Shown here piece after piece: positions 3,263 to 44,932 of a stretch of DNA of 44,932 nucleotides (its first letter is position 1; every line of letters starts with the position of its first letter). The notes below the pieces were generated by a model, which did no database searches, had not been told where the DNA came from, and was given only the letters and a program-made list of their open reading frames with translations. This stretch comes from a virus: IMG/VR virus record IMGVR_UViG_3300009285_000604, positions 1-44,932 of that record; one strand, given 5' to 3'. A program made the translations under genes and the position numbers.

Positions 3263-3550
3263 TTATCTATTCTCCATGACGATCCCACGGCACGTCCCGC
3301 CAAAACGGGCGTACACCTTGACCAAACGTTCCATCTGAGGCCCGTAATCTACGACGATTCGCACACCCCTCTCACCCGCGTGCCTCATAACTTCACGACA
3401 AACCCGCAGGAATGTGCCGTAAGGTGCGCTAGAATCAACGGTGAGCGCACCTACGCACACCAAGCCGTCATTCTCCACGATGCGGCAACGAGCCACCTCT
3501 ACGTCGTCGTTTGTAACGCGGAGCCAGCCGTCTGAGATCACGAACTCCAT
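3263..3550 (-). CDS. small GNAT-like acyltransferase fold protein
   Basis: A 95-residue protein whose ATG overlaps the stop of the preceding gene (TGATG). The C-terminal half, with FLRVCREVMRHAGERGVR, then a hydrophobic strand, then LVKVYARFGG, has the helix-strand-helix pattern of the end of a GNAT acetyltransferase, where a Y/F-x-R/K-x-G motif is typical. It is shorter than a normal GNAT domain (about 140 residues) and the acyl-CoA pyrophosphate loop is not obvious, so enzymatic activity is doubtful. Similar short proteins lie among structural genes of many phages. The function is unknown. Confidence 0.5.
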   Translation of the reverse strand: MEFVISDGWLRVTNDDVEVARCRIVENDGLVCVGALTVDSSAPYGTFLRVCREVMRHAGERGVRIVVDYGPQMERLVKVYARFGGTCRGIVMENR

Positions 3551-4784: not shown

Positions 4785-5399
4785 TCATAGTACGGGTTCG
4801 TTGGGGGCGCTCTCGGTTGTCCCGAGGTCAGCCGTCGTGAGTGCGCCGGTCGTGGCGATGGTTGCTCTCCACCAGTGTCCGGCAGAGTCCTTCCACTGGA
4901 TGCCCTTGGTGTCGTCTCTGAGGATGACGTCGGTTAGGGTGTACGTCTCGCCGCTGGAACCCGAGACGGGGACAACGGTAGGCCACACGTCAGCGCCGCT
5001 GGAGTTCTGAAGGGCCGGGATGTGCGCCCGCTGATACTGCTTCACCGTGGCAATCGTTGCAGCCGCCGCGTTCTTTACGGTGATAGCCGCCGTTCCACGG
5101 TTCTGAATCTCGATCCACGCGCCCGTGTAGCCGGTTGGGAGCGTCATGTCTGATGCAACGGTGCAGTTCACGAGGTGGACTTGGTTGAGGTCGCTCGTCG
5201 TGAGAACCACCGCCGCCACGAGGTCGTACTCCTGCGTCAGATTTGCGGGAGTCCATGAGCTGTCCGAAGCAATCGGACGTCTCTCCACCGACTCCAATCG
5301 GTCCTCGAGGTAGTTTATCCTCGCGTCGTAAACCGCGAAAACTCGGTCAAGTTCCTTCTGGAACACCGGGTCTAACCCTTGAATGTACGGGAGCCTCAC
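4785..5399 (-). CDS. tail fibre / tail appendage protein
   Basis: A 204-residue protein read from GTG 5399, which overlaps the stop of the large tail gene (GTGA), the coupling used throughout this genome. Residues about 10-45 (FQKELDRVFAVYDARINYLEDRLESVE) form a predicted coiled coil that could mediate trimerisation. The rest is beta-rich and ends with a WWRATIATTGALTTADLG segment like those of fibre tips. A longer version starting at GTG 5435 is possible but would overlap the upstream gene by 40 bases. Confidence 0.6.
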   Translation of the reverse strand: MRLPYIQGLDPVFQKELDRVFAVYDARINYLEDRLESVERRPIASDSSWTPANLTQEYDLVAAVVLTTSDLNQVHLVNCTVASDMTLPTGYTGAWIEIQNRGTAAITVKNAAAATIATVKQYQRAHIPALQNSSGADVWPTVVPVSGSSGETYTLTDVILRDDTKGIQWKDSAGHWWRATIATTGALTTADLGTTESAPNEPVL

Positions 5400-7969: not shown

Positions 7970-8681
7970 AGACGAACCTCGGATACGCGTCCCCGCTGTC
8001 GGTCCAAGGCCCTTCGATGGCGTTGCGGTTGTCCAGCGCGATGCCCTCGATGAGAGTGTTGGCACGCGCTAAATATCGGTTCATGATTGAAAGTTGTTCT
8101 TGGGTGGTGGCCGTAGGTTCCGCCACGTTCGCCGCGCACACCCACGCGAGGTACTCGTGAAGCTCCTCGGGGATGTCTGGCTCCTCGGCGTCGTCGGAAC
8201 CGTGCGTCATGTCGGCAGGCATGTACGTCCCGCTGATGAAATTGTTTGAGCCCGCAGACGACGGGGGCGGGGACAGCAGGAGCTTCCCGTTGCCGAGGTA
8301 AACGGCATACGACGGTGTTCCGGTGGACTCGGTGGGCCACTTCGGACGCAAGACGTTGAGTTGACTGAGCGATATAAGGCCGGGTTTCCCCTCATAGTCC
8401 TTGCACGCGTACTCGCTGATCCACACGACGTGGGGCTGCACCACCTTCCTTGAAACGACAGGCGTGTCCACGTCCCTGATGTTGAACTTCGCGGAGTTCG
8501 TGTTGGCAATCGCGGTCAGCGTGAACGTGATTCGCGGGTCGTACAGGTACAGACGCTTGCCCACCTCGCGGATCGCCCAGTTGAGCTGGGTGGTCAGGTC
8601 AGGGCCTGTAGCGTCGATCTTGGAGTTGTCCAAGAACACCAACGCGTCCGTGAGCGAGGTTCTAAGATCGGTTAGTGTCAT
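7962..8681 (-). CDS. head-tail adaptor (head completion) protein
   Basis: A 239-residue protein starting MTLTDLRTSLTDAL at ATG 8681. The N-terminal helices (about residues 1-60, including QLNWAIREVGKRLYL), the beta middle (VYLGNGKLLLSPPPS) and the C-terminal helix (NRYLARANTLIEGI) fit adaptor proteins that bind under the portal ring in short-tailed phages. It lies between the major capsid gene and the large tail gene, the usual place for an adaptor. No residue-level motif confirms it; the call rests on fold pattern and gene order. Confidence 0.6.
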   Translation of the reverse strand: MTLTDLRTSLTDALVFLDNSKIDATGPDLTTQLNWAIREVGKRLYLYDPRITFTLTAIANTNSAKFNIRDVDTPVVSRKVVQPHVVWISEYACKDYEGKPGLISLSQLNVLRPKWPTESTGTPSYAVYLGNGKLLLSPPPSSAGSNNFISGTYMPADMTHGSDDAEEPDIPEELHEYLAWVCAANVAEPTATTQEQLSIMNRYLARANTLIEGIALDNRNAIEGPWTDSGDAYPRFVCA

Positions 8682-8737: not shown

Positions 8738-9769
8738 TCAGGAAGTACACCCGAGTAACATGCCGTTGATATTCGGCTGTTTGCAGTAGAAGCCCATCCA
8801 TGCTTCCCACGGCAAGACGTGCGTCGCAACCCGGCTGGGGTCTTGCACGATGCCCGAGGCGCTGAAGGGTTCGGTGTTCCTCCAGAGTTGCCACGAACTT
8901 GGGTCGAACAGTCCGACCGTGGTCGTTTCCTGCCGGTTCTCCAGGATGAACGTCGTGTTTCCGAACTTGACGTACTCGCTCCCGAACTTGCTCCACTTTT
9001 CGTCGTACGTGGTGTGGGTGTAAGCCCCGACGAGCGCCTGGATCTTGCCGTACAGCGCGAGTGCCGCGCTGCCAACCGTGGGGTTGCCGCCGTTCACCCG
9101 GATCGCGTTGATGCGCTCCTGGATCTTCGCGAGGGTCAAGTCGCCCACCGAAGTGGTGACCATGCCTCGGAAGTCGGCGTTGTCGTCCGTGTTGCGGTCA
9201 AGACCGTACGTTCGGTAGTTGGCGCTGTCCGCAGCCGTGCCCGTGGACAACTGATGCCGCCAGGGACAGACCGACGTGCGTCCCGGCTCGTTCGCGGTCG
9301 AAGTGTTGATGGCCGTACCGAATGTGTTCTCAAACGAGAGCATCAGGTAGTTCATCTTCTCTTCGATCCACGAGGTGCCGCGCACTTCGGGACCGGTGAA
9401 CCGCATCCGCTCGGACGACGGGAAGTACTCCGCGTCGGCAAAGTGGACGAGCGGCAACGTCACAGCCGCGAACACCGTGGTCGGGATGATGGTCCCAGTC
9501 CACGTTGTGGTTTCAGCCGTGCCGTCGGCTACCGTGGCAATCGTCTTGAGTTGGCCCATCAGATTCAACTGGATGTTGAGTCCGCTGACCTTGCTCTCGC
9601 GATTCCAATTCACCGACAGAGGCTCGGCACCCGGCTCGGCTTTGTCGAGGACCGCGTAGAGCAGTCCGTTCTTGCGTCGAATGATAGCGACAGATTTGCT
9701 CTGCCACAACTGGTTGATGAGTTTCGCTTCTGCGTAGCGCGAAGCGTATGCGCCTGCCCAAATGGCCAT
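8738..9769 (-). CDS. major capsid protein
   Basis: A 343-residue protein starting MAIWAGAYASRYAEAK at ATG 9769 after a GGAGGG ribosome site. It follows the acidic scaffold gene and precedes the adaptor, the standard place for the major capsid protein. Features consistent with an HK97-like shell are the long helix near the N-terminus, the beta-rich middle, a Gly-rich domain boundary and a C-terminal strand region (WEAWMGFYCKQPNINGMLLG). The length is typical. A small inverted repeat (CTCCC/GGAGGG) overlaps its ribosome site and could modulate translation. The call is by synteny, size and composition. Confidence 0.75.
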   Translation of the reverse strand: MAIWAGAYASRYAEAKLINQLWQSKSVAIIRRKNGLLYAVLDKAEPGAEPLSVNWNRESKVSGLNIQLNLMGQLKTIATVADGTAETTTWTGTIIPTTVFAAVTLPLVHFADAEYFPSSERMRFTGPEVRGTSWIEEKMNYLMLSFENTFGTAINTSTANEPGRTSVCPWRHQLSTGTAADSANYRTYGLDRNTDDNADFRGMVTTSVGDLTLAKIQERINAIRVNGGNPTVGSAALALYGKIQALVGAYTHTTYDEKWSKFGSEYVKFGNTTFILENRQETTTVGLFDPSSWQLWRNTEPFSASGIVQDPSRVATHVLPWEAWMGFYCKQPNINGMLLGCTS

Positions 9770-11453: not shown

Positions 11454-11719
11454 TGACACGACGCTCACTCTTGCAGATGTTGCCCCTCGGGGCTCTAGGG
11501 TTGCTGTTCGGCAAGACCGTCGCCACGCCGAAGCCACAGGCCGCGATCATCCCGTACAACGGGGTTCACTGGATTCCGGATCAGCGCGTGGGAACCACAC
11601 CCCACGTCGGACTGCCCCTCCACCCAGGCTCGGAGAACTGCATTGAGTGGACTAGTTGTTGGCGATTCCCCGAAGAAACACACGCCACTCTTGCGCCACC
11701 GTCTCCAAATCGAATCTAG
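11453..11719 (+). CDS. small protein with Tat-like signal peptide
   Basis: An 88-residue protein starting at GTG 11453, coupled to the previous gene by a one-base overlap. The N-terminus, TRRSLLQMLPLGALGLLFG, matches the twin-arginine signal pattern (S/T-R-R-x-hydrophobic-hydrophobic-x followed by a hydrophobic stretch), which directs folded proteins across the inner membrane. The short mature part has no recognised motif (Trp, Pro, His and two Cys). The 3' end overlaps the GT4 gene tail-to-tail by 68 bases and lies in repeat copy 2. A role in changing the host envelope is inferred only from the signal. Confidence 0.55.
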   Translation: MTRRSLLQMLPLGALGLLFGKTVATPKPQAAIIPYNGVHWIPDQRVGTTPHVGLPLHPGSENCIEWTSCWRFPEETHATLAPPSPNRI

Positions 11720-12539
11720 GGTCTGGCCCCACCTCGGGGGGACTCTCCAGAATCTCCTGTATCCTGTCGCACCACTCGGTATTCGTGGAATGGAGCGGCA
11801 TTACCGACTCGGCACCCGCAACCTCACGCGCTGCACCGAGGTCTGTCGTCAGAACCGGTGTTCCTAGCGCCCTGGCTTCGCCGTACACGAGCCCGAACGT
11901 CTCGGGGAAGTCCTCATTGCACTGGAGCATCAGAGAGGCACTTTCGACGTGTTTCAACAAGCGTGGCTGCGGGAGGCTGTCGAGCGGCAGCACGTACTTC
12001 GTATGTACACGCGGTCCTTTCAGGTAGCCGGGGTTCGCCCAGTAGAACCGGTACGAGTCGTCCCGCGTGAGCAACTGCCCGAACACCTGGAGCGTCTTCA
12101 TGAAGCCCTTCCGTGGGCTTGACGTGAAGATTATCTTCTTTTTGTCCCTGTAAGGATGGGAAGATGTTGTTACCACCGGGTTATATATGCGCACGGCTGG
12201 GCGTTTGAAGTGCTTCTTGATGTTCGCCGCGTGGAAGTCGGACACCCCGACGAGTACGCAGTCCTTCACGCCGTCCCTGATCTCGTCTGTCACGTCGTCC
12301 GCTACGAGGTAGTCGTGCATCCACAGCACCTTCGGCCCTTCGATGCCGACAACCGACGTTGGATCTCGCAGGAACACAGCCACGTCGTAGCCTGGCTCCC
12401 ACTCCATGTTCACGTCAGCGCCAAGCATCCCGGCGATTCGGCAGACGGTAGCCTCTGTGCCACCCATCGCTATCTTGGTTTCGTCGCCGGGGGCATATTT
12501 GAATGGACTCACAGAGTCGATAAATTGGACGCGGATCAC
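11652..12539 (-). CDS. GT4-like (GT-B fold) glycosyltransferase
   Basis: A 295-residue protein from GTG 12539, overlapping the stop of the small membrane gene (GTGA). The C-terminal half carries the nucleotide-sugar motif of GT4 enzymes, DFPETFGLVYGEARALGTPV followed by TTDLGAAREV, with the usual E-x7-E spacing. The N-terminal half is short for the family (YDVAVFLRDP, VLWMHDYLVADD). It would transfer a sugar from a nucleotide donor. Its place just after portal in the head operon suggests glycosylation of a virion protein or of a host surface molecule. Its 3' end is duplicated at 11012-11113. Confidence 0.8.
   Translation of the reverse strand: MIRVQFIDSVSPFKYAPGDETKIAMGGTEATVCRIAGMLGADVNMEWEPGYDVAVFLRDPTSVVGIEGPKVLWMHDYLVADDVTDEIRDGVKDCVLVGVSDFHAANIKKHFKRPAVRIYNPVVTTSSHPYRDKKKIIFTSSPRKGFMKTLQVFGQLLTRDDSYRFYWANPGYLKGPRVHTKYVLPLDSLPQPRLLKHVESASLMLQCNEDFPETFGLVYGEARALGTPVLTTDLGAAREVAGAESVMPLHSTNTEWCDRIQEILESPPEVGPDPRFDLETVAQEWRVFLRGIANN
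11695..11735. repeat. 41-bp direct repeat, copy 2 (within GT4 3' end)
   Basis: Second copy of the 11073-11113 segment, differing at two positions. Here it is the authentic 3' part of the GT4 coding sequence on the minus strand and also forms the end of the Tat-signal gene on the plus strand. Confidence 0.85.
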
Positions 12540-12657: not shown

Positions 12658-14295
12658 TCACATCGGGGGCGCTTGTCCAGCCCCCATTGGACCCATCGGC
12701 AAGCCCATGCCCGCCTGTTCAGCGCCCATCTCGTCGCCCACGTTTAGCGCAACCTTCAAGTCCTTCTCGCCCATCGCCTTGAGGACTTCCTCGCCCCACC
12801 AGCGGGGGTTGAACAGCCCAATCTGCACCTGGGGGAAGATCGCCATGAGTTGTGCCACGCGCTGCGAACGCTTCGCTTCCACGTCGCGGTAGTTGAGCGA
12901 TTCCTCGCTCACCACGGCGTTTGCCGGTTCCTGGAACACCTGATCCAAAGCCGACTCTGGTGCTTCGGGGTTGTTCAGGAACGCCTTACCGTCGAAGAAC
13001 TCCACCCACACGGGTTCGCGGTCGAAGTCCTTGGCGATCTTCACCATGGTGTCGAACGAACGCTGTCGGAACTGGACCGTCTGGCGAATGCTCCACGAAC
13101 CCTGTGTCTGGCCCTGTTCTGCAACCATCTGGTTCTCGCCCAGGGTGCGCGTCTCCTCTGGCTGGATGCCCTTGTCGAAGTCCGTGATGCCCGATTCCGT
13201 GGTGAACTGTCTCTCAAGGTGCTGGAAGTAGTTGACCGCCGACGTGGAGATGTCCTGAGCAGGCACCCGCTCCCACGCATCGTGTGCGCCTTGGCGTGGC
13301 TGTGTGCGTCGTACAACACGGGTAGGACGCCCAGCACGGATCGCCTCTAGGTCGGCACGCTCGAACTGGCTGATGTCTGCAATGTCGAAACCCTTGCCAG
13401 CCAGGATGTTCTGGCGCATATACTCTTCGCACTCGTTCAGCGCCTCTTGCGTCGCCATCTGCAGGACAACCGCACCCACGGGCGTTCGCATCCCCGGCGC
13501 GAAGAAGTGGACGTAGTGGGAAAAGGGGAGACAACCGAAGGGGTTTGGCCCCTTTTCGATGGGCTTGTTGTGCCATGAGCCTGGAACAATTGCCCAAGTT
13601 GGGTCGTCGCCCCCTATTCCCATGTCGTAGTACTCGAACAGGCGCACCATCTCAAGCGGCTTGCCCGACACCTCGTCAAATAGCGGCTTCACGTACGGTT
13701 CGATGACGGCGCGGGGCCATCGCTTCAACGCCTCTTCTTTCGAGATGTAGTGAACGAACGTCACCCTTCGCCACCTGGAAGGATCGCGCTCCGTCGGGTC
13801 ACCGAGCGTCATCAGCGTGGGGGAATGCCGACACGCGAGCATCTGCTGTCCAGTCGGCCCCTTCTTCAATCCGTATTGCAAGAACCCGAGTCCGAAGGCG
13901 TGACCTTCGATGAAGGCCATCTCCTCCTGCCGTCCAAACCTGTCGTCTCCAATGGGCCATCCATTCCAACGGGCTTTGATGTAGCCCTTCCTAGCGTTCG
14001 CGTCCATGGCGTCAAGCTGGGGGAACTCGGGTTCTGGCTCGTTGTACATCACCTTGGAAAGCGTGATGAACGTCGTGTTCAAAATGCGGCGGCTCTGTCC
14101 TACGGCAAGGTACTTCGGCTTGATGTCGGGCCAGTACGGGAACTCGCCCTCGTCAAACCCTGGAACCGACGTCGCAGTCTGGTCCCACGCGTCACCGAAC
14201 GCGTAGCGCATCTGCCTGTACACCGACGACAGGTAGTCGGGCATGTAGCTCTCGTGGATGCGCTGTTCGATGTCGTCTTTCTTGGCTAGTCCCAT
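12658..14295 (-). CDS. portal protein
   Basis: A 545-residue protein from ATG 14295. Size, gene order (after the terminase region, before scaffold and capsid) and sequence features fit a portal of short-tailed phages: a helical N-terminus (IEQRIHESYMPDYLSSVYRQMRYAFGD), a beta-rich wing region (RRVTFVHYISKEEALKRW), a long stem/clip helix region (TQEALNECEEYMRQNILAG), a Q-rich part (ENQMVAEQGQTQGSWSIRQ) and a Met/Pro/Gly tail (GMGLPMGPMGAGQAPPM). It would form the dodecameric DNA channel and dock the terminase. Confidence 0.8.
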   Translation of the reverse strand: MGLAKKDDIEQRIHESYMPDYLSSVYRQMRYAFGDAWDQTATSVPGFDEGEFPYWPDIKPKYLAVGQSRRILNTTFITLSKVMYNEPEPEFPQLDAMDANARKGYIKARWNGWPIGDDRFGRQEEMAFIEGHAFGLGFLQYGLKKGPTGQQMLACRHSPTLMTLGDPTERDPSRWRRVTFVHYISKEEALKRWPRAVIEPYVKPLFDEVSGKPLEMVRLFEYYDMGIGGDDPTWAIVPGSWHNKPIEKGPNPFGCLPFSHYVHFFAPGMRTPVGAVVLQMATQEALNECEEYMRQNILAGKGFDIADISQFERADLEAIRAGRPTRVVRRTQPRQGAHDAWERVPAQDISTSAVNYFQHLERQFTTESGITDFDKGIQPEETRTLGENQMVAEQGQTQGSWSIRQTVQFRQRSFDTMVKIAKDFDREPVWVEFFDGKAFLNNPEAPESALDQVFQEPANAVVSEESLNYRDVEAKRSQRVAQLMAIFPQVQIGLFNPRWWGEEVLKAMGEKDLKVALNVGDEMGAEQAGMGLPMGPMGAGQAPPM

Positions 14296-14960: not shown

Positions 14961-15584
14961 TTACGCGAACCTCACCATCGGCAACGGATCGGTGTTCTTG
15001 TACACCCACCGATGCGTCACTTTCGATGCGATAACCCCTTCTAGGCGCTTAATCTCGCATTTCTGATCGGTAAACACCTGCTTCCACTCCACGGGAATCT
15101 CGCGGCCTTCCCGGTTCGCACCCTGAATCGCTTTCGACGTCTGCGCGAATGCCGATACAACCAGGTCGAGCGCGTACCTCGCCGCCTTGGCCTGGAAGTC
15201 GTTCTCGTCGTACGTCAGCACAACGCACGACTCTGCGGTGTCCACGTCCATGCCAGTCTCGCCCACGCTCCACACGCCGCCCTTCTCATCGAGCTTCGTC
15301 ACGAACACGTCGCCAGCCCTGAGCCCCGAGTTCGGGTTGTTCTTGAACTGTCGAGCCCGAAGCAGGAGCATCGCACCCATTTCTTGCAACTCCAAGATAT
15401 GGTCGTCACACACGCCGGTCATCGATGCGTTCGTGCGCGGGTGCAGTTCATTGTATGTACACTTGAGATCTTCCGCCGTACGAAGGGTTTCCTCCGTCAC
15501 CGGGAACTGCACAGCATCGTTGCTTACCTTCGCAACCCTCTTCTCGGAGGGTTCCCTTGCCACTCTCTTCCTGTATTTACGCAT
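14961..15584 (-). CDS. hypothetical protein after large terminase, 207 aa
   Basis: Starts MRKYRKRVAREPSEKR at ATG 15584, overlapping the terminase end by 8 bases. It has a basic N-terminus, then mixed alpha/beta sequence with isolated cysteines (LKCTYNELHP, MTGVCDDHILEL). The C-terminal part contains a helix (AARYALDLVVSAFAQTSKAIQ). No motif was recognised. The basic start and its coupling to terminase suggest a packaging or head role, which is only inferred. Confidence 0.55.
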   Translation of the reverse strand: MRKYRKRVAREPSEKRVAKVSNDAVQFPVTEETLRTAEDLKCTYNELHPRTNASMTGVCDDHILELQEMGAMLLLRARQFKNNPNSGLRAGDVFVTKLDEKGGVWSVGETGMDVDTAESCVVLTYDENDFQAKAARYALDLVVSAFAQTSKAIQGANREGREIPVEWKQVFTDQKCEIKRLEGVIASKVTHRWVYKNTDPLPMVRFA

Positions 15585-17022
15585 CCCAGTCGTCCTCGCC
15601 GGGGGTTTTGAACCCGCCTAGCCTTCTAAAGTGTTCCCACGAGTTCGGGTGTACGGGAACATCGTCCTTTACGTACCCGCCCTTCATCTGAACCAGCAGC
15701 TTCACCGCACCTGAAACCGCGTCTATCTGATCGTCGTGTTTCCCGTATGGGAAAACCAGTGCCTCGTCAATGAAATCACGGTTCCACGCGCCAGCGCACA
15801 ATGCCAACTTCCCGTCAGCAGCACGAGCCGCCCATGCCATCGCGCGGGCGTACTTGTCGCGGTCTGGAGTCAACTCGTAAAGCGGCACCCGAAGGAACTC
15901 GTTGTTCCGTTTCAAGTCCTGGATCGCCGCCAACTGAAAACCCACCTTTTCGACGCCTACAAGCGTCCCTGCCGGGTCCTGGCGCACCGTCTCAAGAATC
16001 CTACGCCTCGCGTCGGGCCACTCCTCTCTGAAGCGCACAACGTCGGCAACCCAGATGCAACCGTTCTCGTCTACCCCCACCCTGGCTCCAACCGTGTAGT
16101 CGGCGTGTTCCTTGACCGATGCGGCCAAGTCCCAATACCGAATCCACCGTGCAAGCCTCGGAGTCGAGTCTGAAAGCCGCATCCAGTCGCGCTTGAACAA
16201 GGCCCCGGATGCAGGGACCGGTTCACCCTGGTAGAGCGCGGACCACACATGGGGGCCTACGTCTGTCTGTACAGCCTCGTAGTCTGACAGCGACCACCGT
16301 TCGGGCCACAGGGGGTTGTCGTCGTCGTCAATCGCCTTGAAGTGGAGGATCGTCCACTTACCAGGCTGTTCCTTCAGCAGCCGCCCGATAACGTCGTCGC
16401 TGTGCCAGCGAGTACATAGGATAATTGTCGGTACGTTCGCCCTGCGTTTGCGCGTGGTGATGACCGACTTCATCCACATCCACACCTTCTCCCGAATGAC
16501 CTCCGAGTACGCCTCTTCAGCGTCCTTGTAGAAGTCGTCCAGCACCGACAGGTCACTCGTGAAACCGGTTGACGGCCCGCCGATGCCCACGGCGTGGACG
16601 TAACCCATGCTCCCGGCGAACTTCCAGTGCGCCTTGCTTTTCGAGTCTGACGCCAAGGACAGGTGCGGGAACAGTTCCTTGAACTCGGCTGTCTGCGCCG
16701 CGTCCCGAATCTCACCCGACACCATCTCCGCACGGTCTGCGCCGTACGTGCCGTACACGATCCGCTTGTTCGGGTTCCTGGCTAAAGACCAGAGAATGTA
16801 CCGAATCAGCAGTTCAGTCTTGCCCTTCTGAGGCGGGCAAGTGATAATCAGGTGCGTTATCTCGCCTCTGTCCACCTGTTCCAGCGCCCTGGCGATCTTG
16901 ACGTGGTGCGCCGACACCTCGTAGTCTGGATACGTCCATCTAGTGAACGCGAGCAGATCGCTACGACACTGATCTAAACAGTTCTGCTGTGCTTCTTGCC
17001 CGTTCGATTGCGGTAACGCCAT
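15577..17022 (-). CDS. terL: terminase large subunit
   Basis: A 481-residue protein with the two terminase domains. The ATPase has Walker A at residues 62-70 (CPPQKGKTE), Walker B at 158-163 (LSVLDD) and coupling motif sequence around LCTRWHSDD (202-210). The RNase H-like nuclease has its first acid in RYWDLAAS (D298), a central E358 candidate (VGVEKVG) and the late HDDQIDA motif (429-435). It packages DNA into the prohead through the portal and cuts concatemers. It starts at ATG 17022 with AAGGGACAGG upstream, overlapping the GT2 gene by 62 bases, unusually long for this genome. Confidence 0.92.
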   Translation of the reverse strand: MALPQSNGQEAQQNCLDQCRSDLLAFTRWTYPDYEVSAHHVKIARALEQVDRGEITHLIITCPPQKGKTELLIRYILWSLARNPNKRIVYGTYGADRAEMVSGEIRDAAQTAEFKELFPHLSLASDSKSKAHWKFAGSMGYVHAVGIGGPSTGFTSDLSVLDDFYKDAEEAYSEVIREKVWMWMKSVITTRKRRANVPTIILCTRWHSDDVIGRLLKEQPGKWTILHFKAIDDDDNPLWPERWSLSDYEAVQTDVGPHVWSALYQGEPVPASGALFKRDWMRLSDSTPRLARWIRYWDLAASVKEHADYTVGARVGVDENGCIWVADVVRFREEWPDARRRILETVRQDPAGTLVGVEKVGFQLAAIQDLKRNNEFLRVPLYELTPDRDKYARAMAWAARAADGKLALCAGAWNRDFIDEALVFPYGKHDDQIDAVSGAVKLLVQMKGGYVKDDVPVHPNSWEHFRRLGGFKTPGEDDWDA

Positions 17023-17872
17023 CCTGTCCCTTCATGCTCAGGTGTCGATCCCACAGTTCCAGCATCCTGTCGGGGAACCGTTTCAAACCTGCCTCCAACA
17101 CCTCTTTCGCCCTGCGCTTCTTGCCGAGCTTCACGTACGTGCGAGCAAGATGCACGTACATTTCTGGAACCCACGCCATGTCGGCCCCGTCCCCCTGCGT
17201 CAGTTGGATCACGCGCTCTAGCCACTCGGCGCAATCCTTGTTGTTCCCGGCGTTCTGGAACTCCATCGCGATGTACTGCATCACAAGCGGAGTCGGGTTG
17301 TCCTCGTATTCGGCCTGCAACAGCCTCATGTTGCGCGTAGAACGCTTGTTCAGGGCCTCCTGGTCATATGCGGGGAACCCGTGGTGGAAGACCTCCCAGT
17401 GGACGCGCACGACCCCTGTTCCGTCCCCGTACTGACCGAAGGCTAGATACTCGTGAATCCGCTGCTTCCAAGGGATGAACGTCCGATACAGCCGAACGTG
17501 TTCCACAACGTAGTCGTTCGGGTACCTGTAGTCGCACAGGAAGCCCAGACAGTTGTCCTGGGCCTCGCTCACGTTCTCGTAGATCTGGTGGACGACATCC
17601 TCCTTGATTTCGTCGTCGCCGTCCAACCAGAAGATCCAATCGCACGTCGTGTTGTCCTTCCACACGTTCCGCGCCGCCGCGAAGTCGTCGCACCAGGCGA
17701 AGTCCACCACCCTGGCACCCAACTTGCGGGCTAAATCTTGGGTCCCGTCCGTGGAACCCGTGTCGATCAACAGCGCGTCGTCAAAGCGTTTCGCGAAGGC
17801 CAAGCATCGTCGCAGGTTTTCCGCCTCGTTCTTCGCTATGATACAGAGCGCGACCGTTGGAACTCGTTTCAT
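16961..17872 (-). CDS. GT2 glycosyltransferase with TPR-like C-terminus
   Basis: A 303-residue protein from ATG 17872 after AGAGGTGG. The N-terminal GT-A domain has VALCIIAKNEAENLRRCL, the acceptor/donor loop LLIDTGSTDGT and the metal-binding acids in IFWLDGDDEI. The C-terminal 120 residues contain helical pairs with spacing like TPRs (MYVHLARTYVKLGKKRRAKEVLEAGLKRFP). Such GT2-TPR proteins add sugars to peptides or glycans. Placement inside the terminase-head operon suggests a virion target, but host envelope or nucleotide targets cannot be excluded. Confidence 0.85.
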   Translation of the reverse strand: MKRVPTVALCIIAKNEAENLRRCLAFAKRFDDALLIDTGSTDGTQDLARKLGARVVDFAWCDDFAAARNVWKDNTTCDWIFWLDGDDEIKEDVVHQIYENVSEAQDNCLGFLCDYRYPNDYVVEHVRLYRTFIPWKQRIHEYLAFGQYGDGTGVVRVHWEVFHHGFPAYDQEALNKRSTRNMRLLQAEYEDNPTPLVMQYIAMEFQNAGNNKDCAEWLERVIQLTQGDGADMAWVPEMYVHLARTYVKLGKKRRAKEVLEAGLKRFPDRMLELWDRHLSMKGQDGVTAIERARSTAELFRSVS

Positions 17873-17891
17873 TTCCACCTCTGGAATTGTA

Positions 17892-17957: not shown

Positions 17958-18701
17958 TTAGCCGGTGCCGTCCGTGAACGACGACCGCGCAGCGTACGCG
18001 TAGATCCAGTCAATGGTTAGGGTGTCGGCAGCCGCCGCACCCGTCTCCATCTGGATGACAGGGAAGATAACCACGTCGTCGGGGAAGTTGCCCGCAGCCG
18101 CAACCGTCCCGTGCGAACGGGTTCCGCCCGAGTGGGCCACGTACTTCACGTCCCCAATGTCCGTGGTGGACGATGGGACGTACTCGAAGAACACCCGACA
18201 GTAGGTGTCGTCGGCCAGAGTGGCGATCCCATCGGATGCCGTCTCAGTCGAGTCCTTGACGATGTTCAGGTTGAGTGTCGCGGCACCCTCTACGAGTTGG
18301 AACACGATGTGGTCCGCAGGGACGCCATCAATGTAGTCCGTGTCGTGGATGCCGAGTCCGATGTGGACGTGGGTGTCGTCGGCGTCGGTCGTCTTGAACC
18401 GACAGCCGAAGTAGATGGACTCCCCTGCCATCAAGTCGGAAATCTTGATCCCCGAGTTGGCGATGAGGGAGATGGTTTCGGCGTCCCCGGCGTTCTGGGT
18501 GAGGATCAAAGCCCCGCCCGTGGTCGTCAGGTCCAGTAGCTGCGTGGAGGCACCCTCTTCGTACTTCGTCCACTTCGCCAACGCCGAGGTTTCGGACATG
18601 TTGAAGTCGTTGAAGTCGTCCCAGAAGCACCAGGACGAGGGGCCGACACCGTGTTCCAGCAGTGTGATGTCGCGTCGGATTGTGTTGGTCGGTGTTGGCA
18701 T
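17958..18701 (-). CDS. beta-sandwich virion protein, paralogue A1
   Basis: A 247-residue protein starting MPTPTNTIRRD at ATG 18701 after a GGAGG-type site. It shares the whole layout with the next gene upstream: LEHxVGPxSW, FWDDFNDxN, YFGCRFKT, VEGAATLNL, HSGGTR, FPDDVVIFPVIQ, FTDGTG. The alternating beta strands resemble lectin-like or carbohydrate-binding sandwich domains common on phage capsids or fibres. The array of four related genes suggests decoration or surface-binding proteins. The role is inferred from composition and position. Confidence 0.65.
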   Translation of the reverse strand: MPTPTNTIRRDITLLEHGVGPSSWCFWDDFNDFNMSETSALAKWTKYEEGASTQLLDLTTTGGALILTQNAGDAETISLIANSGIKISDLMAGESIYFGCRFKTTDADDTHVHIGLGIHDTDYIDGVPADHIVFQLVEGAATLNLNIVKDSTETASDGIATLADDTYCRVFFEYVPSSTTDIGDVKYVAHSGGTRSHGTVAAAGNFPDDVVIFPVIQMETGAAAADTLTIDWIYAYAARSSFTDGTG

Positions 18702-18710
18702 GATAACCTC

Positions 18711-19448
18711 CTAGCCGGTTCCATCCGTGAACGCCGCGCGCGAGGCATAGGCGTAGATCCAGTCAACACTGGAAACGTCAGCGGCAGCCGCCCCGTTCTG
18801 AACCTGAATGACTGGGAAGATCACAACATCGTCAGGGAAGTTCCCCGCCGTGTTGATCGAACCCGTTACCCGCGTGCCGCCCGAATGGACGATGTACTCC
18901 AGCGTTCCGATGTCCGTAGTGGACGTGGGAGTGTACGCGAAGAACGCCCGAACCCAGGTGTCGTCGCTCACCGTGGCAATCGCCGTCGCAGACGTGATTA
19001 CCGAGTCCTTCGAGCAACGAAGGTTCAGCGTGGCCGCACCCTCCACCAACTGGAACGCCACGTAGTCCGCAGGCGCACTCGCCTGATAGGACGTGTCGTG
19101 GAGGCCCAACCCGATGTGGAGGTCAACGTCGTCCGCGTCCTCGGTCTTGAACCGGCAGCCGAAGTACAACGTCTCGCCAGCCTTCAGGTCGGACACCTTG
19201 ACGCCAGCGTTTCCGATCAGGGAAATCACGTCGTTGTCGGTCGCCGCCTGTGTCAGCGTCAGGACGCCACCCGTGAGGGTGAGGTTCAGAAGTTCGGTCG
19301 CGCCTGCCGTAGACTCCAACATCGTCCACTTCGCAAGTGCCGACGTTGCAGAGAAGTTCAGGTCGTTGAAGTCGTCCCAGAAAGCCCAGGAATCCGGTCC
19401 TACGTTGTGCTCTAGGAACGGAAGATCTCGTTCGATTCTTGTTGCCAT
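18711..19448 (-). CDS. beta-sandwich virion protein, paralogue A2
   Basis: A 245-residue paralogue of the 17958-18701 product, clearly similar from residue 5 to the identical ending FTDGTG. It starts MATRIERDLPFLEH at ATG 19448, overlapping the stop of the preceding gene by one base. Segments such as LAKWTxxE, GETLYFGCRFKTEDADD and TTDIGTLEYIVHSGGTR are shared. The tandem pair is best explained by gene duplication, which lets two variants be displayed on the particle or supports different ligand preferences. Confidence 0.65.
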   Translation of the reverse strand: MATRIERDLPFLEHNVGPDSWAFWDDFNDLNFSATSALAKWTMLESTAGATELLNLTLTGGVLTLTQAATDNDVISLIGNAGVKVSDLKAGETLYFGCRFKTEDADDVDLHIGLGLHDTSYQASAPADYVAFQLVEGAATLNLRCSKDSVITSATAIATVSDDTWVRAFFAYTPTSTTDIGTLEYIVHSGGTRVTGSINTAGNFPDDVVIFPVIQVQNGAAAADVSSVDWIYAYASRAAFTDGTG

Positions 19449-20233
19449 TATCTATCTACTCCCGCCCAGGCGTACTGGACCGTGATCGTGTCTGTGCCGG
19501 TGTCGTTCGGCGTCCCGCCAATCCCCGCTTGGAGAACAGCGTCAGCCGCCGCACCCGCAACTCCCAATGCCGTCAACTGCGCCGCGGTAAACGGTGTGGA
19601 TTCACCGTTGACCCACCAACGTCCCCAACTTGACGCCGCGTCCGCGCCACAGAAGAACTGGACGCCCAGTTCAATCGACGTCGCATCCACCAGGGTCGCA
19701 AGCGTGCCGGTGTCAGCGGATGCCCCCGTAGCCGTTCGCACCGTTCCGATGAGCGTGGCAACAGCCGCGCCGCTCTCGAAGTAGATGCCGTCGGCAGGTT
19801 CAGCCTGAGCAATCTCGGCGTCCCCGGATGTCCAGAACCCAAACCAGAACCCGTCCTGGTCTACGTCCTCGACAGCAACACGCGCAATTGCCGTGTGCAT
19901 CTTCCCGGCAACAACCGTGTTGGCGCGAGTCGATGTCACGAACGCGTCGTCGTTCTGCGCGTCACCGAACGTCAGCAGATGACCACCGGCAGATGCCGCC
20001 GACAACGAGATGACTCCCGTCCCATCCAGCGTCTCGGTGTACCAGTCCTTGTTGTACAGGTTCACGTAGTTCATGTCGAACAACGTCACCGTGCTCACAC
20101 CCCAGGCAGGAATGCTCCCCGGCATGAAGAAGTCCTGAGCCTGCTCCTGTGGCAGAACCAGTTGCCTCTCCCTACCGGGGGTAGACGCCTGCCCCGGATG
20201 GGTTTCAATACCCTTCCAGAGTGTTTTGGCCAT
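19448..20233 (-). CDS. beta-rich virion protein, paralogue B1 (full length)
   Basis: A 261-residue protein with an N-terminal module beginning MAKTLWKGIETHPGQASTPG (residues 1-72) and a beta-sandwich module (residues about 75-261) that contains FWFGFWTSGD, AEPADGIYFESG and a WGRWWVNGE strand. It is similar along its length to the two consecutive open frames just upstream (20818-21036 plus 20233-20817). Overall architecture and place match A1/A2, so it is probably another surface or decoration protein. Its intact form shows the upstream pair was once one gene. Confidence 0.65.
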   Translation of the reverse strand: MAKTLWKGIETHPGQASTPGRERQLVLPQEQAQDFFMPGSIPAWGVSTVTLFDMNYVNLYNKDWYTETLDGTGVISLSAASAGGHLLTFGDAQNDDAFVTSTRANTVVAGKMHTAIARVAVEDVDQDGFWFGFWTSGDAEIAQAEPADGIYFESGAAVATLIGTVRTATGASADTGTLATLVDATSIELGVQFFCGADAASSWGRWWVNGESTPFTAAQLTALGVAGAAADAVLQAGIGGTPNDTGTDTITVQYAWAGVDR

Positions 20234-20817
20234 TAGCGGTCACACCCCGCCCACGCGTACTGGACGTACACGTCGTCAGCGCCCGTGTCGCCAGCCCGCG
20301 CACCGATGAGCGCCGACAGACTCGGAGCCGTGGTCGTCACCATCGCCGTGAGTGCCGTGATCTGAGCAGCCGTGAAGGCGACAGCCGTCCCGTCAACCCA
20401 CCATTGTCCCCAACTCTTACCGGCAGTCGTGCTTGCACAGAACTGCATCCCGATCTCCACCGTGTTCGTGAGTCCACCAACCGAGTCGGAAATCGTCGCA
20501 AGAGTAGCCGTGTCAGCCGATGTACCGGCATTCGACACAACCGTCCCGATCAGAGTCGCAGCCGCTACGCCAGACTCGAAGTAAACGCCGTCGGCAGGCT
20601 CCGCCGAGAACACCTCGACCGTGCCATCGGTGCAGAACCCGAAGAAGAACCCATCCTTGTCCGCGTCCTCAAGCGAAATCCGCGCAATGGCCGTGAACAC
20701 CTTGTCCGTAGCCATCGTGTGGGCGCGAACCGACTCAACCGAACTGTCGTCACCCGACGTGGTACCCAAAAGCAGCTTCAGACCAGCCGCCTGCGCCGTT
20801 ACTGTTCCTGCTGCCAT
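20233..20817 (-). CDS. beta-rich virion protein, paralogue B2 C-terminal part
   Basis: A 194-residue frame starting ATG 20817 directly after, and in the same phase as, the TAA stop of the 72-residue gene. It matches residues about 75-261 of paralogue B1 (FFFGFCTDGT, AEPADGVYFESG, SWGQWWVDGT, VQYAWAGCDR). No convincing ribosome site precedes its ATG, so expression would rely on reinitiation, or on readthrough that would restore a 267-residue protein like B1. Confidence 0.6.
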   Translation of the reverse strand: MAAGTVTAQAAGLKLLLGTTSGDDSSVESVRAHTMATDKVFTAIARISLEDADKDGFFFGFCTDGTVEVFSAEPADGVYFESGVAAATLIGTVVSNAGTSADTATLATISDSVGGLTNTVEIGMQFCASTTAGKSWGQWWVDGTAVAFTAAQITALTAMVTTTAPSLSALIGARAGDTGADDVYVQYAWAGCDR

Positions 20818-21322: not shown

Positions 21323-21395
21323 TGGGTGCGGGCGTTGGAGTCGAACCAACCACCGCAGGTTATGGGCCTGCGTCACACACCGGTGTCCGCCCACG
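21323..21395 (-). tRNA. tRNA with CAT anticodon (initiator-like)
   Basis: The T arm is canonical (GTTGG-TTCGACT-CCAAC), the anticodon stem is GCAGG/CCTGC with loop CCCATAA (anticodon CAT), and a 3' CCA is encoded. The acceptor pairs GTGGGC with GCCCGC, while position 1 is C facing A72, a mismatch that marks bacterial initiator tRNAs. Oddities are C instead of T at position 33, GG instead of TA at 8-9, a short D loop (CGGTGT) and C73. It could be an initiator Met, elongator Met or Ile2 tRNA, or a decaying copy. Confidence 0.7.
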
Positions 21396-35884: not shown

Positions 35885-36276
35885 AAACAACCACGACATT
35901 CGGGGAGTTGCGCGAGGCTGGTGCTTGCCGGGAGCGATACCGCTTCTTGGCGAAGGCCCTCGGCGGTGTGAAGGAGTACGGTGAACGCGCGCCAATTTCA
36001 GTCGCGACGATCTTGGAGAAGAGCGGGCTGGACGACGCTGGGTGGGCGATGTCCGACGTTCCCTCGCTCAAGCCCCTCTACGACGCGTACTGGGCGCAGC
36101 TCGAGCCCCTCTACGACGCGTACCGGGCACAGCTCAAGCCCCTCGACGACGCGTACCGGGCACAGCTCAAGCCCCTCTACGACGCGTACTGGGCGCAGCT
36201 CGAGGCACTCGACGACGCGTACTTGGCGCAGCTCAATGCACTGATTGTGAGACTATGCGAGGAGAACGAACGATGA
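35881..36276 (+). CDS. hendecad-repeat helical protein
   Basis: A 131-residue protein starting MKTTTTFGELREAGACRERY at ATG 35881. After a folded N-terminal part (FLAKALGGVKEYGER) come five 11-residue repeats of type LxPLYDAYxAQ (residues about 63-117) and a helical end (LIVRLCEENER). Eleven-residue repeats form long, slightly right-handed coiled coils. No enzyme motif. It may be a scaffold or inhibitor; the array length may vary between relatives. Confidence 0.65.
   Translation: MKTTTTFGELREAGACRERYRFLAKALGGVKEYGERAPISVATILEKSGLDDAGWAMSDVPSLKPLYDAYWAQLEPLYDAYRAQLKPLDDAYRAQLKPLYDAYWAQLEALDDAYLAQLNALIVRLCEENER
36067..36231. repeat. five 33-bp tandem repeats
   Basis: Units start at 36067, 36100, 36133, 36166 and 36199. 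Units 1 and 4 are identical and the others differ at a few positions. Each encodes one hendecad, so copy number can change by slippage without breaking the frame. Confidence 0.9.
36258..36276. repeat. 19-bp gene-junction repeat, copy 2
   Basis: Exact second copy of 35866-35884, at the end of the hendecad-repeat gene and the start of the next. Confidence 0.75.
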
Positions 36277-40655: not shown

Positions 40656-40842
40656 TATTGGGATGTGCCTCAACCACGAATGCCCACTCAGGGACGCCTG
40701 TTACCGCTACAGGGCCATTCCAAGCGAGTGGCAGTCATATGCTGCGTTCAAGCCGGTAGACGGCGCGTGTGAGTCGTTCTGGCCTATAGAGGGCAGGGCT
40801 GTGTTACCCGCCGCTCTTGCTGGTCTTGGTCTTGGAAGATGA
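40648..40842 (+). CDS. small cysteine-containing protein (CPLRxxCYR type)
   Basis: Read from TTG 40648 overlapping the previous stop; ATG 40663 is an alternative. Its pattern MCLNHECPLRDACYRY then PSEWQSYAAF and CESFWPI recurs in small phage and plasmid proteins, with four conserved cysteines likely binding metal. The last 13 residues overlap the end of the giant polyvalent gene tail-to-tail by 39 bases. Confidence 0.65.
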   Translation: MPDIGMCLNHECPLRDACYRYRAIPSEWQSYAAFKPVDGACESFWPIEGRAVLPAALAGLGLGR

Positions 40843-43800
40843 AGAACCCCTCTTTGGATAACGGTTTACCGCCGTTCCAACGAACTCCTTGATGTAGGAG
40901 TCGAATGCGGACACCGCACCGTGCCCGCCCTGCAATTCTGCAAGCGTCGCTTGATAGATGAGGGGAAGAGCCGTTTGCCATCCCTTCTCGTGCGGGTCGA
41001 GTTTGTAACCAGTCCACACGTCCTTGATGTCATCTTCTGCGACTCCGTGTTTGCGTTGGTAGATCACGCTTGACTGGGTTGTCGGGGTGGTGACAGCGGG
41101 ACTGATCGAACGCTTCGCCGCCTTGGCGATCTCGCCCTGCCACGTCTTCTCGCTATCAGTGTTGAAGTATGCGTCCACAAGGTTGTAGATGGTCATCAGG
41201 CGCGGCGAAATACCCGCGTCAACGGCCCATACCTTGTCACCCTTGCGAAGTTTCAACCCGTCGCTTTGGAATTCGAACTCGTAGCCAAACTGGTTCGCGA
41301 TCTTGACTGTGGCGTAGAACTCGGCTGCTGTTACCGCCATGTCCTTCATGTTCCGCAACGCACCCACGTTCAAACCCTTGCCAGTTGCTAGATCGGACAC
41401 CACCAGGGCGCTGTTCCGCATCGGCTCAAAGATCGTCTCCCACCTGGAAACCTCGTACCGTGGAGACGTGAAGACCAGTTGCGCGGCGTCTCCTACCCTC
41501 TTCAGGTTGCTCCTGCCGGTAACCGCGTTGAGATAATGAGCCCGTACCTGGAGAGCCCGGTCGGCATCCCCGGCGTTTATGGCGCGTAGCATGACGTCGC
41601 GTCGAGCGGTGTTGATGAGCGCGGCTTGGAACCTGTCGAACGTACCAACCCTGTCAGACACCCACTCGCCAACCCACGGGATATGGTCGGCAATGCCACG
41701 GATCGTTCTTCCAAGTATCATCTCCTCTGGGTCTACGAGGTAGTCTGACGTACTCACCCCTACGCGTTTGAAGATGGGTTCAGCCATGCGCCCGTCGTCC
41801 GTCACCATGTGGCGCATCTGCGTTTCCAGCGTCGCCATTGCGGTGTCCGACCTTGCGGCCTTCAGCGCATTCGTGAATCCCTTGCCCCACGACTTCGGTT
41901 GTGCCAAGATGGCTGCGCCTTGTCGGAACATGATTCCAAGGTCTTGACCCAGAATGGTTCCGCGCACAAGTTGGGCCGAGCCCCGAATGACTTTCGATGT
42001 TCTCGAAATACCAGCTTCAGCGATTCGCCGTCTGGCCTGTCCCTTCAGCAACATGAGGTATGCCCTCGCCGCCTCAAGTTCGTCGCTGGCTTTGCGTCTT
42101 GTCTTATCTCCCCTCACGAGTTTTTCGAGTTCTTCTGGCGTGCCCGATTCCAGCACCCGTTCGGCATCGGAGGTCTTGACCTTGACGTCGGCCAGCTTCT
42201 TTGCCTCTGCCACCGCATCTGCCGCCGCGTCTGGGCGTAACTTACGGGCCTCGCGAACGATCTTCGCGCCCGTCTTTGCGGCTTCCGAAGGCTTCTTGTC
42301 AGAACGGTGCGCCAGCAGGTCTAACGCGTCGTCGTCTGTGATGTTTAGGAGTTTCGCTATCTCCTTGGCAATGACCTTGATCTCGGTAATGCCGGTGTCG
42401 TACAGGTTCGCGGCCAACCGACGCGCAATGTGAACAGCCGCCCCCATCTTTGCGGGGTCAATGTTCATGCTTATCTCGGTTGTCAGTTTGGCAAACTGAG
42501 AAACCAAGTCCGTTCGCTCTTTCGACAGCCGTTCAAGCCTTGCCGCGGGGGCCTCGTTTGCTGGCGTACGAGCACGGCGCGTGGCGCGGATGTATGCCGC
42601 CGCGTCAGCTTCCTTGAGTGCTGCCTCCTTGAGCGCAACCGCCGCCTCGCGCTCCTCGATCTTCAGCGCCATCTCGTCAAAGGCGGCAGACTCCTTGGTG
42701 GTGAGCGGTCCCAAGTCCCCCGTGCGCTTGTTTGCCGATGCGCGTGACTTCATCCCCAGCGCCGTGAAGTCGTCGTCAATGTCCTCTCGCCTGAACGCCA
42801 TGCGTCTCGCGATGTCCGTGCCTTGCGACTTGGATGCGTCGGTGAGTGATTCGTACTGCGATCTCAGCACGTCGCGCTCGGCGTTCAACCTCTCCAATTC
42901 CACCTTGTCCCCACGGCTGTTCGCGATCTTGGCGGTGAGGTCGTTGTACTTCTTCGTCAACTGCTTCCGCGCCACGAGGTTGTCAGCGTCCTCGGCTATC
43001 GTGAGCGGTTCTTTGGATCGCCCCGTGTTGATGTCGTCGGCACGAGACAGGGCTTTCTCATGGGTTGAAGGATCACTCTTGGCGCGGTCTGCCGCATCGT
43101 CCACCGCCCTTGCGAAACTCATCCTGTCCGCTTCTGGCACATCCTCAAGTCCCATAGCGCGACGCGTCTCGTTGGCGACCTCGTTACGAAGCGCCTGCGT
43201 TGAAGGGATTGCGCCGGGTGTGGTCGTTTTAGGCCCCTCTGCGCCACGCACAGGCGTTTCAGCCGCTTCCCTGGCAGTAATGCCCACCCGCTTCGCAATC
43301 GCCTCCATGTGCGGTCGTATGGCTTCGCCAAACTCGTCCACCATGTGCTTCGCGAGCGTCTCTACCGTCTTGGCACCCTTGATGACGTAGACCTCTGCAA
43401 ACTCCACGGCGATGTCAATGTCCGCTTTGCCGATGGTGCCGCCGCCGCGCTTGGCGGTTCGTCCCTTCGCCGCACTTGACGCCGCCGATGCACGCAGGTT
43501 CCTGAGCGCCACGATGCGCTCGTCTTCGCTCATGCCCTTCTTCGCGGCGCGGTACTCGGCAATGTTCTTCGGTGCCTTTGCCGGTACGCCCAGCCCCGCC
43601 TTGTGCGCCGCGAACTCCTCGGGCGTCATGTCCACGATGCTCTTGGGGCCCGTTTTCGGCTGCGGGGCTTCTAGGGGCTTTTCGGCCACGGGTTTACTTG
43701 TGGGCACATCTGCTGACTTGGGGGTTCCCTTTACGGGTGTCGGAGATTCTACTCCTACCGTCTTAGAGGGCTTGACGTTCTGTGCGGCAACAGGTGGCTC

Positions 43801-44932
43801 TACCTTCGGTGGAGGATTGCCTGTATCTGCTCCTACGGTTTGCACATCCAGACCCACGCCCCCAACCTTCCGTCGGGCCATCGGTCCTCCGCTTGCTCCG
43901 CGTCGTAGAATCGCCTCTTCAGCCATACGGGCATTGGCGTCGGCAATTGATTTGACGGGGTTGTCACCCAGCCATTCTCTTGCGATACGATACAGGTCGC
44001 GGTGCTCATGTTCAAGCCAATTCGGGCTAATAGCATACGTCCTCCCGAGGTCCATAAGCGCCTCAAGGGCACCCTCTCCTGGTTCCTCACCATAATACCC
44101 GCGCAATGCCTTCATCGCACGGTGCCCGGCATCCGGGTCCGCGCTGAAATACCCGTGCATCACTTCGTGCGCTTCGGTCAGTGATTCACCATTGAACTTC
44201 CCTGGGACGTCAGCAAAATCCAACCCCCCAGAGGTCTTCACGATAAGCGAGTGCGTACTGGGCCGTCCAGGGGCAATGTTCAACTGGCCGTTGATAGATG
44301 TTGATTTCCCCGGGTGCGTGGTCCTGTCCCACGTCGCAAGGTCCGTCTCGAACTCCCGGTGTTTAGTATTGACCCCGGCCTGGTCACCGACTTTCGCCGT
44401 GATAGCAGGTTCCGGGGAATAACCTTTGACGTTCTGTGCGGTAACCACCGGGGTTGGCGTTTCCACCACCTTGGCTGATGATTGCGTCGCTTCGTCCGCC
44501 GCGTCCCAGGCTTCGTCCGCCGTGGCGTGGCGGGATACGATGTCCCCGGCGTTTGACCTGCCCTCTGGATGCACGGCAAACTTGTCGCCCATCTTGCTGA
44601 CAGTAAACGTCGGCGGGGATTCTTTGACGACCATTGCCGGGAAAGACTTCTTCCCCATCGCCCGCAATGCTGCCAGACGATGCGCGCCCTCTATGATCTC
44701 AACCGTGCCGTCGCGCCCGATGGCTACGATGAGGGGGTCAATTCGTCCCGACTCACCTATCGCGGCGGCGAGGTTTCTGGCATCGGCTGCGCGGTGGTAC
44801 GGCTGGGTGATGTCACCTAACGGGATCTCGTAAACCCCTGGCAGGGTTTTTTGACTGTTGAACCATCCATCAGCGGATGAACGGTTGCTTATCTTCTCGC
44901 CAACTGTCAATCCGTCTACAACGGTGCCAGCC
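40804..44932 (-). CDS. C-terminal part of giant polyvalent protein (ParB-like + HExxH + polyvalent-type C-terminus)
   Basis: Open from 44932 to the stop at 40804, about 1375 residues, continuing the frame at 1-1178 to give about 1768 in all. Numbering the joined protein, a ParB-like domain spans about 424-495 (DITQPYHR, DPLIVAIG, IEGAHRLAALRAMG). A zinc-protease signature HEVMH is at 648-652, with later acids (EEPGEGALEALMD) as possible third ligand. Long charged helices fill the middle. The C-terminus has the RQGAAILAQPKSWGKGF stretch and the AVDAGISPRLMTIYN-like end typical of phage polyvalent proteins. Such proteins are thought to enter the host with the DNA and counter defence. The TTG at 44910 has no ribosome site. 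Confidence 0.85.
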   Translation of the reverse strand, partial: AGTVVDGLTVGEKISNRSSADGWFNSQKTLPGVYEIPLGDITQPYHRAADARNLAAAIGESGRIDPLIVAIGRDGTVEIIEGAHRLAALRAMGKKSFPAMVVKESPPTFTVSKMGDKFAVHPEGRSNAGDIVSRHATADEAWDAADEATQSSAKVVETPTPVVTAQNVKGYSPEPAITAKVGDQAGVNTKHREFETDLATWDRTTHPGKSTSINGQLNIAPGRPSTHSLIVKTSGGLDFADVPGKFNGESLTEAHEVMHGYFSADPDAGHRAMKALRGYYGEEPGEGALEALMDLGRTYAISPNWLEHEHRDLYRIAREWLGDNPVKSIADANARMAEEAILRRGASGGPMARRKVGGVGLDVQTVGADTGNPPPKVEPPVAAQNVKPSKTVGVESPTPVKGTPKSADVPTSKPVAEKPLEAPQPKTGPKSIVDMTPEEFAAHKAGLGVPAKAPKNIAEYRAAKKGMSEDERIVALRNLRASAASSAAKGRTAKRGGGTIGKADIDIAVEFAEVYVIKGAKTVETLAKHMVDEFGEAIRPHMEAIAKRVGITAREAAETPVRGAEGPKTTTPGAIPSTQALRNEVANETRRAMGLEDVPEADRMSFARAVDDAADRAKSDPSTHEKALSRADDINTGRSKEPLTIAEDADNLVARKQLTKKYNDLTAKIANSRGDKVELERLNAERDVLRSQYESLTDASKSQGTDIARRMAFRREDIDDDFTALGMKSRASANKRTGDLGPLTTKESAAFDEMALKIEEREAAVALKEAALKEADAAAYIRATRRARTPANEAPAARLERLSKERTDLVSQFAKLTTEISMNIDPAKMGAAVHIARRLAANLYDTGITEIKVIAKEIAKLLNITDDDALDLLAHRSDKKPSEAAKTGAKIVREARKLRPDAAADAVAEAKKLADVKVKTSDAERVLESGTPEELEKLVRGDKTRRKASDELEAARAYLMLLKGQARRRIAEAGISRTSKVIRGSAQLVRGTILGQDLGIMFRQGAAILAQPKSWGKGFTNALKAARSDTAMATLETQMRHMVTDDGRMAEPIFKRVGVSTSDYLVDPEEMILGRTIRGIADHIPWVGEWVSDRVGTFDRFQAALINTARRDVMLRAINAGDADRALQVRAHYLNAVTGRSNLKRVGDAAQLVFTSPRYEVSRWETIFEPMRNSALVVSDLATGKGLNVGALRNMKDMAVTAAEFYATVKIANQFGYEFEFQSDGLKLRKGDKVWAVDAGISPRLMTIYNLVDAYFNTDSEKTWQGEIAKAAKRSISPAVTTPTTQSSVIYQRKHGVAEDDIKDVWTGYKLDPHEKGWQTALPLIYQATLAELQGGHGAVSAFDSYIKEFVGTAVNRYPKRGSSSSKTKTSKSGG

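Follow-up and report, generated by a model that had tools for sequence, protein, structure and literature searches.

The virus record IMGVR_UViG_3300009285_000604, from an uncultured phage, was analysed over its full 44,932 bases (positions 1 to 44,932; hereafter the window) and carries at its two ends what appears to be one gene for a giant protein with a ParB/sulfiredoxin (Srx)-type domain and a candidate metallopeptidase motif, HEVMH. The longest frame in the record runs on the minus strand from 44931 to 40804, comprises 1375 codons and a stop, and is open at its 5′ end at the very end of the record. At the other record end, also on the minus strand, 392 codons start from an ATG at 1178 and run off base 1 (1178–3). 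Joining the record end to start yields a single in-frame, stop-free frame of 1768 residues (392 + 1 + 1375 codons), in which residues 1–392 are encoded at 3–1178, codon 393 straddles the join (bases 2, 1 and 44932), and residues 394–1768 and the stop occupy 40804–44931. An earlier note on this DNA had given 1768 residues for 40804–44932, silently closing the circle; that length stands if the record is circular, whereas the interval alone holds 1375 codons. Little is known of the proteins that phages inject, many of which are giants containing regions that lack an assignment.

The ParB/sulfiredoxin-type module and its homologues

The ParB/Srx-like module covers approximately residues 400–509 (44584–44913, minus strand) and includes a GAHRLAAL motif; GAHRLAALRAMG is found at residue 475 of the joined protein. 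The Pfam family PF02195 (ParB_N) matched residues 50–102 of the right-hand part (44626–44784) with 19.2 to 23.7 bits, a significant match (best E-value 1.6e-6 for the record) but below the curated Pfam cut-off of 26.3 bits. In PHROG, five families of ParB-like proteins matched, together with a methyltransferase family covering the same stretch. An AlphaFold2 model built from six sequences (mean predicted local distance difference test score, pLDDT, 70) shows a beta-alpha-beta-beta-alpha-beta order, and Foldseek placed it closest to Noc (7nfu, E 2.8e-5), with ParB, sulfiredoxin, PadC and SbnI/free serine kinase also among the similar structures; the model additionally resembles many phage ParB proteins.

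Related modules occur in other phages. Scanning IMG/VR by pattern for codons that spell GAHRLAAL returned 77 stretches, many of them chance frames, and the real homologues (L169, L139, L119, L107 and L150) are 40–46% identical to the module. Similarity runs N-terminally past ParB_N, and the homologues and the giant share the same module with an N-terminal extension, but the domain combinations differ and the flanking sequence is unrelated. The GAHR residues, a Gx(H/R)R-type motif, are invariant across the module alignments, although these homologues had been found by a pattern that includes GAHR. Two contigs of 297 and 150 kb (L169 and L139) encode a 1519-aa protein with two HExxH motifs and the ParB module at its C-terminal end. 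The other three proteins are 652 aa in length, truncated in L150; that of L119 combines ParB with an ADP-ribosyltransferase of the PolyVal type (ART-PolyVal), and its gene directly adjoins those for portal and the terminase large subunit. The module genes of L107 and L150 have a terminase small-subunit-like gene close by. The ParB alignment was also run against GTDB genomes and gave no confirmed relative.

Together, the sub-threshold Pfam and PHROG ParB matches, the predicted ParB/Srx fold and the 40–46% identical copies in phage proteins firmly support a ParB/sulfiredoxin-type domain at approximately residues 399–500 of the giant. They bear out the ParB-like core that had been proposed from the letters of the sequence, including by structure prediction of the region, the check then suggested, and the module recurs in other multidomain phage proteins.

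At approximately 110 residues, the module is a short, testable domain, one that a podovirus-type giant has in common with the 1519-aa protein and with an ADP-ribosyltransferase protein linked to terminase. It could reveal whether ejected ParB folds are nucleotidases, nucleases or switches, a question that dates from the description of polyvalent proteins. A bolder proposal, toward which we are inclined to be doubtful, is that it represents an undescribed, non-DdrB-like ParB/Srx subfamily, marked by the N-terminal extension and an EGAHRLAAL...FPA.VV signature, and that it would be a mobile effector module attached by very different phages to ejected giants with zincin or ADP-ribosyltransferase domains, where it may act as a nucleotide-dependent enzyme in the first minutes of infection.

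Separately, the 1519-aa protein (L169:2576–7132, and likewise in L139) contains several segments set apart by recurring RVASRFRRMEAG-like stretches, which gives it the look of processed or shuffled modules strung together.

The HEVMH segment and the remainder of the giant

The HEVMH motif lies at residues 648–652 of the joined protein (44155–44169). A zincin in this region is plausible but unproven. The zincin signature described in the earlier note is indeed present, but it is weaker than was implied: an HExxH motif turns up in 2.3% of shuffles of the giant, Pfam gave no zincin or other family over the region (the MPTase-PolyVal and M91 models were likewise without a match), and a zinc-protease pattern of PROSITE type does not fit because of a glutamate two residues ahead of the first histidine. 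Searches for relatives in which conservation could be followed returned none. A single-sequence AlphaFold model of the segment that includes the motif (43840–44475, minus strand) is too low in confidence to be informative (mean pLDDT of 38.5). Of the three-stranded sheet, active-site helix and third-ligand glutamate expected of a zincin, it shows a helix over the motif, followed by further helices, and no strands; E679 and E683 are only candidates for the third ligand.

A rival explanation is that the ParB module is real and that HEVMH arose by chance within helical sequence, in which case the giant would be an ejection protein without a protease, its only recognisable enzymatic module being ParB. 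The shuffling frequency, the silent family models, the ill-fitting PROSITE-type pattern and the lack of a homologue that might show the motif to be conserved all favour this explanation, to which we give a little less than an even chance. Against it, a low-confidence model puts the motif in a helix, with more helices bearing candidate glutamates after it; a phage giant with the same ParB module (1519 aa) also bears HExxH motifs; and zincins are the most frequent domain among polyvalent proteins (PMC5512222).

Downstream of this segment, a linker rich in Pro, Lys, Thr and Ala was recognised by composition at approximately residues 761–820 (43651–43830, minus strand). The C-terminal region (residues ~1381–1768; 40807–41970, minus strand) ends in a basic tail and corresponds to no recognised family in profile scans. 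The polyvalent-type C-terminal domain expected here from the first reading is recognised by no family model: Pfam families gave no match, and an assignment to LPD38 was rejected after negative results from both HMMER (hmmscan) and profile comparison (hhalign). In the giants of ctsTn925, Vibrio D60 and Burkholderia DC1, by contrast, LPD38 was readily detected near the C-terminus.

Searches for close relatives gave none in IMG/VR (for the giant and for the nozzle-like and capsid-like proteins), none in GTDB genomes (for the C-terminal region of the giant) and none among GenBank phages (for the giant, the portal and the nozzle-like protein). Following relatives of the terminase (~35% identity at best) led to records that do not carry the giant. 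By these searches, the sequence of the giant is highly divergent.

In another record, L088 (L088:8529–17966; MW202426.1), the presence of adaptor and stabilisation-protein genes along with an LPD38 giant of 3145 aa suggests a podovirus despite the title Myoviridae sp.

Gene order and the proposed ejection of the giant

The giant is preceded by two smaller genes on the same strand. A ~197-aa protein (2668–3261) occupies a gp14-like slot and a 494-aa protein (1182–2666) a gp15-like slot; both were placed by sequence and order, with no family match. The ATG of the 494-aa gene (2666) follows immediately after the preceding stop (2668), and its own stop (1182) lies 3 nt ahead of the ATG of the giant. 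The series up to and including the giant therefore measures 197, 494 and 1768 aa, the giant being last and largest. Comparison of the two smaller proteins with their counterparts in DC1, ctsTn925 and Pam1 gave similarity that was insignificant or compositional, and homology to these proteins was rejected as too weak and compositional.

Further genes on the minus strand encode an 889-aa probable tail nozzle or stabilisation protein (5396–8065) and a 239-aa probable head-tail adaptor (7962–8681), both assigned only by position and sequence style (no PHROG or significant PDB match for the former, no PHROG or PDB match for the latter), as well as a 343-aa probable major capsid protein (8738–9769), assigned only by position and size. 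The portal protein (12658–14295; phrog_156, E 8.7e-5) and the terminase large subunit (15577–17022; phrog_38, E 9e-107) were identified by profile. The phage is probably short-tailed; we infer this because no obvious tape-measure gene is present, with capsid, adaptor and nozzle assigned only by order and sequence style.

Taken together, these features suggest, with a probability of roughly 0.6, that the giant is an ejected protein of a short-tailed phage, the largest of a three-gene ejection set, with a ParB-type nucleotidase or nuclease module and perhaps a self-processing zincin. We favour this interpretation because gene order and sizes are as in the triads of T7, P22 and Bcep22-like phages, and because the counterpart in JC1 is in the virion. 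The ParB module and its recurrence in other multidomain phage proteins, the precedent of polyvalent proteins (PMC5512222) and the low-confidence helix over HEVMH also speak for it. The match to ejection operons is an argument from position, since the two small genes could not be shown to be homologous. Several points weigh against ejection as outlined: the neighbours were recognised by position and size, the ends of the giant have no sequence similarity to known ejection proteins, the zincin is unproven, lacking a family match, a homologue or an informative model, and the length of 1768 aa depends on an unproven circular join. The earlier suggestion of a ParB-like domain in a late giant that is probably ejected with the DNA is supported by the profile matches, the predicted fold, the recurrence of the module in phage multidomain proteins and the gene order.

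An ejected giant would be packed in the head and pass through the tail ahead of the DNA, its unassigned N- and C-terminal regions perhaps serving in packaging, envelope crossing and DNA contact. Inside the host, the ParB module, judging from known families, may bind or hydrolyse nucleotide and/or nick DNA, and such activity could help early takeover or protect the entering genome; a counter-defence role is speculative and one possible role. The HEVMH segment, as a possible zincin, could cut the giant into pieces, either prior to packaging or once inside the host, a step that has been proposed for P1 DdrB; alternatively, it could cut a host target. Self-processing of this kind is speculative.

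It is unlikely, in our view, that the giant is not ejected and that its module instead serves phage DNA in the infected cell, in packaging, genome maturation, partition or transcription. Such a role would suit the L119 module encoded beside terminase and portal genes and the L107 and L150 modules near a terminase small-subunit-like gene, and partition protein is the annotation of many phage proteins with a ParB fold. However, the gene closes a late-type triad, and its best-studied counterpart has been found in virions. A partition (ParABS) role is unlikely because profile scans matched no helix-turn-helix family after ParB_N on the giant, and no ParA-type ATPase (AAA_31) was found in the record, whereas all 14 control genomes gave one. 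Less probable still is that the 1768-aa protein is a joining artefact of a linear record whose ends are two truncated genes, an explanation that draws on the failure to find a terminal direct repeat (11–300 bases) as proof of circularity or a close relative spanning the join, but which must account for two ends in the same strand and frame, joined without a stop, with a start on one side only and a stop on the other only, and for a phmmer alignment of the joined protein to an unrelated phage giant that starts at residue 383, 10 residues ahead of the join, mild support only, because similarity is weak in those ten residues.

Other features of the window were noted alongside the ejection genes. 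A 95-aa gene precedes the triad (3263–3550, minus strand) in a slot similar to one that holds an acetyltransferase in DC1, JC1 and Pam1; its own assignment as an acetyltransferase was without Pfam support. Two different glycosyltransferase genes lie inside the structural region (11652–12539 and 16961–17878, minus strand), and two neighbouring pairs of paralogous genes on the minus strand at 17958–20817 (17958–18701 with 18711–19448; 19448–20233 with 20233–20817) perhaps encode head or tail decoration proteins. The window also contains a tRNA-Met gene with anticodon CAT (21323–21395, minus strand) and, among plus-strand genes at 36066–36236, a 33-base unit repeated in tandem in 5.2 copies, possibly an origin or regulatory array.

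Comparison with known phage giants

The association of a ParB domain with a zincin-like peptidase in a packaged phage protein has already been described (PMC5512222), and the domain pair is not new; what sets the present giant apart is the highly divergent sequence, the non-DdrB-like ParB subfamily and the combination in a gp16-like slot. Iyer et al. 2017 (PMC5512222) reported zincin domains fused to a ParB domain, with the same pair in DdrB of phage P1, a polyvalent protein with a DdrB-like ParB and a C-terminal zincin-like peptidase, and proposed that ParB/Srx domains of polyvalent proteins are nucleoside triphosphate-regulated DNases or nucleotide sensors. Polyvalent proteins are late or transfer-associated proteins that each combine at least two disparate catalytic domains; of such domains, the giant has one that is secure (ParB/Srx) and one that is putative (HEVMH). 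Like DdrB, which is head-packaged, it is a late phage protein in which an HExxH segment accompanies a domain of the ParB/Srx superfamily. Unlike DdrB, its module gives a weak match to ParB_N and none to the DdrB-ParB model (PF18763), its peptidase is putative and not terminal, its length is far greater (PMC9024508 gives 108.7 kDa for DdrB), and its phage is probably not a myovirus.

Like gp16 of T7 and P22, the giant has a basic C-terminal tail and is encoded by the largest gene of its set, behind genes in gp14-like and gp15-like slots (the gp14-gp15-gp16 ejection operon is reviewed in PMC8954989). It differs in having an extra ParB module and in lacking detectable sequence similarity, and no peptidoglycan-hydrolase domain was found in it.

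The DarB-like giants of the Bcep22-like podoviruses (Lessievirus DC1/JC1), gp69 of JC1 (4515 aa) and gp67 of DC1 (4650 aa), have no sequence similarity to the giant, and the LPD38 near the C-terminus of DC1 gp67 and its transglycosylase, methylase and helicase domains were not found in it. They are nevertheless alike in being the last and largest gene and multidomain, smaller proteins of ~200 and ~500 aa precede the giant in both JC1 and the present phage, and in JC1, where the series measures 196, 510 and 4515 aa, 51 unique peptides identified gp69 in virions (PMC9144972).

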